A stretch of 64,000 bases of DNA from Blautia sp. (GTDB lineage: Bacteria > Bacillota > Clostridia > Lachnospirales > Lachnospiraceae): positions 62,001 to 126,000 of the forward strand of contig JALEJS010000002.1 of assembly GCA_022769545.1 (NCBI GenBank). The letters are read 5' to 3'. Below the pieces are notes generated by a model that saw only the letters and a program-made list of their open reading frames with translations, was not told the DNA's origin and ran no database searches. Below are positions 48,635 through 53,129 of the stretch, in pieces. The number at the start of each line of letters is the position of its first letter. Positions within the stretch are counted from its first letter, which is position 1. A program made the position numbers and the translations under genes.

Positions 48635-48663
48635 TTGTGTTTTAGGGTGGGGTATGCTACAAT
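48635..48663 (+). promoter_or_regulatory. Promoter of the c-di-GMP riboswitch unit
   Basis: TTGTGT, 17-bp spacer, TACAAT, just upstream of the riboswitch. The rest of 48536-48634 is AT-rich with nothing else I can identify. Confidence 0.6.
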
Positions 48664-48693
48664 AAATTGAAATATACATTATGCCTTTTGGCA

Positions 48694-48783
48694 TATTATA
48701 TCGGCAAAATACCCGAAAGAGTATGACGCAAAGCTATAGGACCTGAAATACAGTATGGTAGCCAGTTGCAGGAAATAATTTGA
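48694..48783 (+). promoter_or_regulatory. Cyclic-di-GMP-I (GEMM-I) riboswitch aptamer
   Basis: The invariant core is present in order: GGCAAAATA, the CCGAAAGAG hairpin with a GAAA tetraloop, GACGCAAAGC, then ACCTGAAA...TATGGTAGC, which forms the tetraloop receptor side, and GTTGCAGG closing the aptamer. ATTAT/ATAAT can make the basal stem. Identification rests on matching the Vc2-type consensus by eye. Confidence 0.88.
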
Positions 48784-48819
48784 AGGCGCTTGGTCACATA
48801 TACAAGTGCCTCTTTTTTT
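48784..48819 (+). terminator. Expression-platform terminator of the riboswitch
   Basis: AGGCGCTTG pairs with CAAGTGCCT, then C and seven T. It starts directly after the aptamer, so ligand binding probably decides termination. Direction of control (on or off) cannot be read safely. Confidence 0.8.
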
Positions 48820-48900
48820 ACAGTGTATTGTTTTTCAAAATGCAATAGCTGAGAATTCATTCTCAAAGGGGAAAATCACATTACGAGAAGGAGAAGAAGT

Positions 48901-50799: not shown

Positions 50800-50856
50800 A
50801 ACGCAGACAGGTCGCTGGCACGCAGCGTTGGAAAGAGATTTGAGGAGAACATCTAT

Positions 50857-53043
50857 ATGCAAAAGAAAAAACAAAAAACGAAATATCTTTTGCCCGTTGC
50901 GTTTGCGATGATTCTGGTCGTTTTTCTGGTGCTGGGCGTAGTTTTTATGCGCAATTCCCTGATGAAGCTGACGGTTGAGGAGCGTTCCAGTCAGCTGGAG
51001 GAAATGGTAACTCAGATTCAGGCAAATCTGCAAAGCGGTCTTCAGACCCATTGGAATCTGGCGACGGGACTTAATGATGCGATACAGGGGGAGCATTTTG
51101 AAAACGAACAGGAATTGTGTGACAACATCGCACGTTTGGAAAAGATGTTCTGCACAGATATGTATGGAAGCCAGGTGATGCTTCTGGATGCGCAGGGCAC
51201 GGGGTATCTGAAGGATGGCCCCGTGGGCATCTGGAACGATATCATTCATCTGACAGACGGGAAAAATCAGCATACCTTTGTTTCTGAAACGGACAATATT
51301 GATGGATGCTTTCTGGTGTTTTCACAGGAATTGGTTTCTCCTGTCACAATGGGGGAGAATAATGTCCGCTTTACCCATGTCGTGCTTCTGAAGGATATCA
51401 AAACCGTGAAACAGTATTATACCACCATGACTTACGGTGGCAGTGCGGCAACCTACTTCATCAAAAGCAACGGAATAATGGCATATTTCGATGCAGACGA
51501 TGACGATGTCATTGGTGCCAGAAATATTTTTAAGGCTCTGGAAGAAGTGGAGTATGTTCAGGGGCAGAGTTTCGAAATAGTCACAGAGCAGCTGGACAGG
51601 GATGGCATTGCTGTAGCGAATATCATGCTGAACAAGACGGAGTATTACTATTGCATTACAACACTGGATGACTATGACATGAAACTGATGCTTCTGATCC
51701 CCGCGGATTCTGTGGCAGTCAGCACTATGAATATGATGGACTCTACCATTCGAACGGGGGTAGTCTTCATTTTAGCGATGGCGGTACTGATGCTGCTGGC
51801 GGTCATCAGTTTTATCAGAGTGCAGCAAAGCAGCCAGATGGTGAAAGTGGAACAGGAGACCAACAGGGAGCTGAACCGACTGCGCATGGTGGCAGAGTCA
51901 GCCAATGCAGCAAAAAGCACGTTCCTGAACAATATGTCCCACGATATCCGTACGCCGATGAATGCAATTATCGGTTTTACCAATATTGCTGTGAAACATA
52001 ATCCTCCTCCTGAAATTAAGAGTTGTCTGGACAAAATCAGTGAGAGCTCTGAGCATTTGCTTGCTCTTATCAACGACGTGCTGGACATCAGCCGTATTGA
52101 AAGCGGAAAGATCAAATACACACCGACCCCTGTTGATATTGCTGAGGTTACAGATTCGGTGCTCACCATAATGTACGGTTACCTGTCCAATCGAAGTATT
52201 ACCTTCCGGACCGAACTGGAGGAACCGAAAATGCGCTATGTGTTGACCGATGCAGTACGTGTTCGGGAGATACTTGTAAACATTCTTGGAAATGCTGTGA
52301 AGTTTACGAATGACGGAGGTACCGTCACCTATTCGGTCAGCTACCATCCTGCAAAAGATGACCGCTACATCAATGTACGATATCGGATTGCCGATACCGG
52401 TATTGGTATGGAAGAAGAATTTGTTGACCGTATTTTTGACGAGTTTTCACAGGAAGAGCATGGTGCCCGGACACAGTATAAGGGTACCGGTTTAGGTATG
52501 GCCATCACAAAGCGGTATATTGACCTGATGGGCGGAACGATTTCTGTGGAGAGCAGGAAGGGAGCTGGTTCAACTTTTACCGTTGAATTGCCGATGGAGA
52601 TCGCGGAAGCCTGTGAGGTTAAGAAAAAGGATTATTCTGTTGGAAATACAGACCTGACTGGTCTGAAGATTCTTCTGGCTGAAGACAATGATCTGAATGC
52701 GGAAATCGCAATTGTTCAGTTGGAGGAACTGGGAATGCAGATTACCAGGGCTGCCGATGGTGAAGAAGCAGTGAGATTCTTTGCTGAAAATCCGGAAGGT
52801 ACCTTTGATCTGATTTTTATGGACGTTATGATGCCGAAAATGAATGGTTATGAAGCAACAAAAGCCATCCGGTGTCTGCCGAATCGTCCGGATGCCGTTA
52901 TGATCCCGATTATTGCAATGACGGCAAATGCTTTTGCCGAGGATGTGCAGGCATCTTTGGATGCCGGAATGAACGGACATTTGTCAAAGCCTATCGTTAT
53001 GGATGAGGTTGTAAAGACGATTGCAGGGAATCTGGACAGATAA
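50857..53043 (+). CDS. Hybrid sensor histidine kinase with receiver domain
   Basis: 728 residues. Membrane segments at about 10-31 and 301-321 frame an extracellular sensor of about 270 residues that looks like a double Cache domain. No HAMP is evident. HisKA has His362 in FLNNMSHDIRTPMNAIIGF; the ATPase has NILGNAVKFT, DTGIGM and KGTGLGMAI. A receiver with Asp656 in IFMDVMMPKMNGYEATKAIR closes the protein. There is no Hpt or DNA-binding output, so the phosphorelay partner lies elsewhere. Co-transcribed with the upstream lipoprotein, a probable ligand-binding partner. Confidence 0.9.
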   Translation: MQKKKQKTKYLLPVAFAMILVVFLVLGVVFMRNSLMKLTVEERSSQLEEMVTQIQANLQSGLQTHWNLATGLNDAIQGEHFENEQELCDNIARLEKMFCTDMYGSQVMLLDAQGTGYLKDGPVGIWNDIIHLTDGKNQHTFVSETDNIDGCFLVFSQELVSPVTMGENNVRFTHVVLLKDIKTVKQYYTTMTYGGSAATYFIKSNGIMAYFDADDDDVIGARNIFKALEEVEYVQGQSFEIVTEQLDRDGIAVANIMLNKTEYYYCITTLDDYDMKLMLLIPADSVAVSTMNMMDSTIRTGVVFILAMAVLMLLAVISFIRVQQSSQMVKVEQETNRELNRLRMVAESANAAKSTFLNNMSHDIRTPMNAIIGFTNIAVKHNPPPEIKSCLDKISESSEHLLALINDVLDISRIESGKIKYTPTPVDIAEVTDSVLTIMYGYLSNRSITFRTELEEPKMRYVLTDAVRVREILVNILGNAVKFTNDGGTVTYSVSYHPAKDDRYINVRYRIADTGIGMEEEFVDRIFDEFSQEEHGARTQYKGTGLGMAITKRYIDLMGGTISVESRKGAGSTFTVELPMEIAEACEVKKKDYSVGNTDLTGLKILLAEDNDLNAEIAIVQLEELGMQITRAADGEEAVRFFAENPEGTFDLIFMDVMMPKMNGYEATKAIRCLPNRPDAVMIPIIAMTANAFAEDVQASLDAGMNGHLSKPIVMDEVVKTIAGNLDR

Positions 53044-53097
53044 CCGGATAAAGAATGAACGCATTATTTTGCAAAAAGAGAATCATGAGTAACTCTG

Positions 53098-53129
53098 AGG
53101 GCATCAACCGAAAAAGTTGGTGCCTTTTT
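53098..53129 (+). terminator. Terminator of the riboswitch-controlled unit
   Basis: AGGGCATCAAC pairs with GTTGGTGCC(T), then TTTTT. Confidence 0.85.

Follow-up and report, generated by a model that had tools for sequence, protein, structure and literature searches.

A gene pair for a solute-binding lipoprotein and a hybrid histidine kinase behind a c-di-GMP-I riboswitch in Blautia sp., a possible ligand sensor linked to c-di-GMP turnover

Layout of the locus

We analyzed 64,000 nucleotides of Blautia sp. DNA (contig JALEJS010000002.1 of assembly GCA_022769545.1), and we refer to this whole stretch as the window. At positions 48635..53129 of the plus strand, the window carries a c-di-GMP-I aptamer, followed by a terminator, a lipoprotein gene and a hybrid kinase gene. 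The features of this interval are the following:

48658..48663, plus strand: -10-like box TACAAT with TGn ahead; weak, recognized by eye and absent from the promoter scan
48693..48773, plus strand: c-di-GMP-I (GEMM-I) aptamer, from the covariance match to RF01051
48784..48819, plus strand: intrinsic terminator in the interval between aptamer and first gene, from sequence and fold
48901..50799, plus strand: lipoprotein gene, 632 aa, from the open reading frame, Pfam, alignment and modelled fold
50857..53043, plus strand: hybrid histidine kinase gene, 728 aa, from the open reading frame, Pfam, motifs and modelled fold
53100..53129, plus strand: terminator-like stem with T5, 3' of the kinase gene, recognized by eye and not in the scan

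The -35 box that would accompany the -10-like box is weak or lacking by eye. An earlier note on this DNA had proposed a GEMM-I aptamer with a terminator of its own, and both elements were borne out. The covariance search against RF01051 gave 62 bits for the window aptamer, with a gathering cut-off of 35 and a match over model positions 1-87 of 87. The terminator consists of a 9-pair stem and a run of seven T, and it is missing from the pattern scan because of its loop. The next gene past the kinase unit is an Exo_endo_phos family gene. A perfect short hairpin (48680-48695, plus strand) lies directly ahead of the aptamer and overlaps its 5' end. Elsewhere in the window we found a Clostridiales-1 RNA at 11471-11638 (plus strand, 145.9 bits) and a tmRNA at 22709-23053 (minus strand, 154.1 bits).

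Domains of the lipoprotein and the kinase

The lipoprotein has a signal peptide with a lipobox cysteine, Cys21, which was recognized by eye and is invariant in the family alignment. The structure model has the two-lobed, sugar-type fold of family 1 solute-binding proteins over residues ~50-435, and the search with the modelled fold, which covers residues 51-435 only, matched 3quf, RafE and 4g68. The Pfam family SBP_bac_1 scored 25.0 bits on the window lipoprotein, under its cut-off of 26, and was detected at E 0.01 in 29 of the 50 family members scanned. Residues 458-579 match the 5'-nucleotidase C domain PF02872 with 32.5 bits (cut-off 23.6), and this domain was detected in 47 of the 50 members at E 0.01. 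The C-terminal profile of the lipoprotein matches 3ivd (E 5.2e-8) and, weakly, UshA (E about 0.04), and the window C domain, searched by itself against solved structures, found a single poor match. The UshA stretch pfgn, which we take to be the place of Phe429 of the base-stacking aromatic pair, is not kept in the lipoprotein profile, and the Phe498 region falls outside the alignment. The metallophosphoesterase catalytic half has no Pfam match in the window lipoprotein, and we dropped the idea of an enzyme for this reason. Excerpts of one study describe the isolated C domain of CpdB as inactive (PMC7922932). Taken together, these results agree with the make-up given in the earlier note, namely a family 1 solute-binding domain joined to a 5'-nucleotidase C-terminal domain without its catalytic half.

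The window genome (G000) has a second copy of the lipoprotein on its contig C32. This copy is read in two frames (L041:8826-10463 and 10427-10804), and the split reflects either a mistake in assembly or a disrupted gene.

The kinase model places an extracellular dCache domain, residues ~35-290, between two long helices, so the Cache-like sensor proposed earlier has a matching modelled fold. The remaining domains are HisKA (352-417), HATPase_c (465-581) and a receiver (605-722), and pattern matches to the His box, the N, G1 and G2 boxes and the receiver Asp are all present. The receiver is the last domain, and we found no output domain after it, as the earlier note had stated. An Hpt is needed by any hybrid kinase whose last domain is a receiver. 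Among the NCBIfam models, TorS and LuxQ matched the kinase core best, both far below their cut-offs.

The lipoprotein and kinase genes recur as a pair

In a sample of 250 genomes of the family Lachnospiraceae, 45 had a lipoprotein match at E 1e-10. The match reached at least 270 bits in 16 of these 45 genomes, and many of the others are partial or ordinary-sized solute-binding genes. Locus counts are given for the best 80 of 159 confirmed lipoprotein relatives, which collapse to 65 clusters at 90% identity. These 80 come mostly from metagenome-assembled genomes labelled Clostridia, with a few other labels, and include a few isolates, for example Faecalicatena contorta, Schaedlerella arabinosiphila and Anaerovibrio slackiae. 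Many domain assignments at the loci were made with small profiles or single locus proteins, and the key ones were checked with Pfam.

The kinase is the next gene in 65 of the 80 loci (52 clusters at 90% identity), with a median gap of 39 bases between the two genes. The two-gene unit of the earlier note is thus a recurrent arrangement. A contig edge ends 6 of the 15 loci without a next-gene kinase. The kinases of the 65 pairs have two receivers in 37 cases and one in 25, and none was seen in 3, which leaves 62 with a receiver. The earlier note had also found no permease, and had taken homologues beside permeases as evidence against its reading. A sugar-type permease gene was found in the operon, meaning the few same-strand genes on either side, at 0 of the 80 loci, with a profile that was built from two sugar permeases and that other kinds of permease could escape.

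Several loci depart from the simple pair. In 13 loci (L182, L185, L186, L191, L195, L201, L203, L208, L209, L210, L212, L215 and L219), a second family lipoprotein, more distant and 591-619 aa long, is encoded next to the main one or almost so on its upstream side, which gives two binding proteins per kinase. One lipoprotein has a hybrid kinase on both sides in L051, L053, L056, L057, L059, L063 and L064; by Pfam, L053 adds a family 3 solute-binding gene, and in L063 a kinase has a sensor of the family 3 solute-binding type. The lipoprotein stands without an adjoining kinase in F. contorta (L193:10954-15741, also L044) and in L223:7784-12605. The genes after the L193 lipoprotein are one of 206 aa, one that is GH3-like and one for a GGDEF-HD-GYP protein. 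L223 carries similarly sized genes together with one for GGDEF-HD-GYP, as judged with our small profiles only.

The riboswitch is an occasional part of the module

We searched the 80 loci for c-di-GMP-I aptamers with a covariance model built from 22 aptamers, in whose alignment 21 columns are invariant. An aptamer directly adjoins the lipoprotein gene on its upstream side in 9 of the 80 loci, which form 7 clusters at 90% identity. Seven of the nine exceed the Rfam cut-off (L193, L160 on contig L043, L147, L148, L150, L158 and L189), and the matches at L161 and L162 fall below it. With the same model, no aptamer was found in the other 71 relatives, some of them ~87% identical; the search was partial in 7 of the 80 loci, which have fewer than 450 bases upstream. 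Because the riboswitch is often absent from close relatives, gating appears to be an add-on, and we rejected the riboswitch as a fixed part of the lipoprotein-kinase module. The earlier note had read the locus as a riboswitch-gated sensing module; its parts and the recurrent pair hold up, and the riboswitch does not hold up as a constant part.

We also collected 40 c-di-GMP-I riboswitches across 22 genomes. The first same-strand gene downstream is the lipoprotein for 9 of the 40, the window's own included, and for 3 others the lipoprotein comes later in the run of genes. Otherwise, the first gene is a hybrid kinase for 8, a GGDEF gene for 2 and a receiver-HD-GYP gene for 1; one of the kinase-first cases and the HD-GYP-first case are also counted among the 3 with a lipoprotein further along. 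The 22 genomes were picked for their matches in the lipoprotein search, several of them weak, so these first-gene shares are not family-wide. The two surveys overlap, since L160/G044:C7, L193/G155:C11, L210/G060:C7 and L199/G106:C44 are apparently the same contigs. Among the 250 genomes, c-di-GMP-I was found in 92, and in 12 of the 16 genomes with a strong lipoprotein match (one-sided Fisher p 0.0016); these counts come from a search with stricter filters, in which weak matches are lost. The window genome has two further riboswitch copies, a second before the L041 lipoprotein and a third at G000:C3.

A terminator like that of the window is present in 7 of the 9 related riboswitch leaders by our own reading of the sequences. 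When 8 nascent leaders were folded, 5 of them (window, L193, L147, L150 and L158) paired the 5' arm of the terminator with bases inside the aptamer, 2 (L148 and L161) paired it upstream of the aptamer and 1 (L160) paired it nowhere. We considered five of eight too weak a basis for a claim, and rejected a switch sign read off folding. The folding leans weakly towards an OFF switch in the window, with the terminator formed when c-di-GMP is bound. In the part of PMC6366702 that we drew on, the functional class I c-di-GMP switches of C. difficile are OFF switches and one class I switch of B. thuringiensis is an ON switch.

Genes for c-di-GMP turnover and Hpt proteins

A minority of the relatives have c-di-GMP hydrolase genes alongside the module, an association that is new here. 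At L041, the riboswitch, the split lipoprotein and the kinase are followed by an HD-GYP gene with its motif. L055 has the order riboswitch, receiver-HD-GYP, lipoprotein, kinase, with genes that overlap or are a few bases apart. A receiver-GGDEF-EAL gene lies immediately 5' of the lipoprotein in L169 and L225, and a receiver-HD-GYP gene takes this place in L181 and stands 191 bases upstream of the lipoprotein in L179. More distant lipoproteins also have c-di-GMP enzymes with them (L061, L063 and L065). When genes near the lipoprotein were compared with far genes of the same loci, c-di-GMP genes were not enriched (3 of 182 near versus 15 of 703 far), and we dropped a general enrichment; the receiver-type c-di-GMP genes numbered 3 of 182 near versus 3 of 703 far. 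The c-di-GMP link therefore rests on particular operons and on the neighbors of Hpt genes.

One Hpt was detected in the window genome (G000:C21:76361), a protein of 114 aa encoded 61 bases 3' of a receiver-GGDEF-EAL gene. The genome is 91% complete, so another Hpt may be missing. The EAL motifs are present in the receiver-GGDEF-EAL protein, and the GGDEF motif was not found. G155 likewise has one Hpt, which forms the last part of a gene that also encodes receiver, EAL and GGDEF domains. We then considered the 18 free-standing Hpts with a retrieved locus, one of which (L255) is below the Pfam cut-off. Of these, 7 flank a c-di-GMP gene, 2 flank a hybrid kinase and 9 flank neither, so that 11 of the 18 have no flanking c-di-GMP gene; Pfam served as a check on these assignments. 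G044, the closest riboswitch-bearing relative in the 250-genome sample, has two free-standing Hpts, and neither has a c-di-GMP gene at its side; one comes after a plain receiver protein. A third Hpt of G044 is part of a kinase-receiver protein. In G222 (L058) the order is riboswitch, lipoprotein, kinase, kinase, Hpt, with the Hpt as fourth gene. In L254, a single chain combines an ATPase domain and receivers with HD-GYP and with an Hpt that scores below threshold (22.8, cut-off 24.6). This chain of Hpt and c-di-GMP gene neighbors is the basis of the output that we propose below. The relay partner, which the earlier note had placed elsewhere in the genome, can be narrowed to the one Hpt by the receiver-GGDEF-EAL protein, with an HTH-receiver protein as a rival.

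Proposed explanation and alternatives

We propose a surface ligand sensor behind a c-di-GMP switch that feeds a phosphorelay aimed partly back at c-di-GMP, a proposal that we consider evenly balanced between right and wrong. Expression of the unit would pass through the c-di-GMP-I riboswitch. The lipoprotein would be a sugar-type solute-binding protein that has gone from transport to serve as part of a receptor; it would most likely bind an oligosaccharide or a similar solute and contact the dCache domain of the neighboring kinase. Phosphate would pass from the kinase His to its own receiver and on to a free-standing Hpt. Because the sole Hpt detected adjoins a receiver-GGDEF-EAL gene with the EAL motifs and without the GGDEF motif, the most likely output would be c-di-GMP breakdown through that protein. 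The result would be a loop, in which c-di-GMP sets the amount of sensor and the ligand-bound sensor shifts c-di-GMP. We suggest more tentatively that this is a closed circuit of gut Lachnospiraceae, in which c-di-GMP read by RNA sets a receptor, and the receptor drives EAL and HD-GYP phosphodiesterases via a shared Hpt.

Such a circuit would let gut bacteria connect a nutrient-type signal from outside with c-di-GMP via an RNA-gated receptor. It would also assign a role to a family of solute-binding lipoproteins that is recurrent, unnamed and without an operon permease, and would supply cases of c-di-GMP riboswitches that govern c-di-GMP breakdown genes. For the orphan hybrid kinase, the analysis gives concrete candidate partners, one Hpt and one EAL protein.

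The relay could instead have a transcriptional output and end on an HTH-receiver protein, with neither c-di-GMP enzymes nor a loop. An HTH_26-receiver gene lies immediately 5' of the lipoprotein in 3 of the 80 loci (L151, L154 and L178), and the window genome encodes a 65% identical HTH-receiver protein (G000:C50:17202-18119). However, the latter gene is on another contig, by YgjP-like, RCC1-repeat and protein-kinase genes, and in 0 of the 9 riboswitch-bearing loci is either of the two genes that precede the lipoprotein a receiver-only gene. We regard this output as a serious competitor, if a somewhat unlikely one.

We also considered that the lipoprotein is an orphan that serves a distant permease, while the kinase senses a dCache ligand of its own and the pairing reflects co-expression only. 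This would fit the modelled sugar-type solute-binding fold, and dCache domains usually bind small ligands themselves. At L041, moreover, the riboswitch is closely preceded on its own strand by a sugar ABC operon that has two permeases, along with a YesM/YesN-like pair. This counts against a purely sensory role there, and a transport link is possible at this second copy. Against this reading stand the count of zero for sugar-type permeases in the 80 operons, the kinase as next gene in most loci, and the near-constant 5'-nucleotidase C domain, which solute-binding proteins of transport are not known to have. Neighboring solute-binding and kinase genes may be unlinked, according to part of PMC11113362, but on balance we find the orphan reading improbable.

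Least probable, to a degree that we would be surprised to see it hold, is that the riboswitch is a leftover or passenger without useful control over the unit: it is present in few relatives, two of them below the Rfam cut-off, and 11 of 16 C. difficile c-di-GMP riboswitches are functional in the portion of PMC6366702 used here, but the window aptamer scores well above the cut-off, invariant columns and like terminators are kept among the aptamers and related leaders, and 9 of 40 riboswitches have a member of this lipoprotein family as their first gene.

Comparison with known systems

A solute-binding protein is encoded beside a sensor kinase in LuxP-LuxQ and TorT-TorS, and the window unit has this combination of genes in common with them. 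The window unit differs in its family 1, sugar-type lipoprotein with a 5'-nucleotidase C domain, in its dCache domain and in its riboswitch. Excerpts of PMC11113362 likewise describe solute-binding protein genes beside sensor kinases, and add that such neighbors are not always a working pair.

The CmrRST system of C. difficile resembles the window unit in placing a kinase-based signalling operon under a c-di-GMP riboswitch (PMC11477304, in part). It differs in having a c-di-GMP-II riboswitch and two response regulators with a sensor kinase, and the part of PMC11477304 that we drew on names no solute-binding lipoprotein. Among the matches listed from the open PMC literature, we found no description of a hybrid kinase and a solute-binding lipoprotein that are encoded behind a c-di-GMP-I riboswitch. 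Riboswitch-gated kinases and pairs of solute-binding protein and kinase are both known, and their combination here is apparently undescribed in the open PMC literature, which is no proof of absence.

The lipoprotein itself has relatives of two kinds. UshA and CpdB have the C-terminal domain PF02872 in common with it, whereas their catalytic metallophosphoesterase half is unmatched in the window lipoprotein. The family 1 binding proteins of sugar ABC transporters (3quf, RafE and 4g68) have the fold of residues 50-435 in common with it. In contrast to these, the lipoprotein family has an extra C-terminal domain and a kinase as its partner, and a sugar-type permease was found in 0 of the 80 operons.
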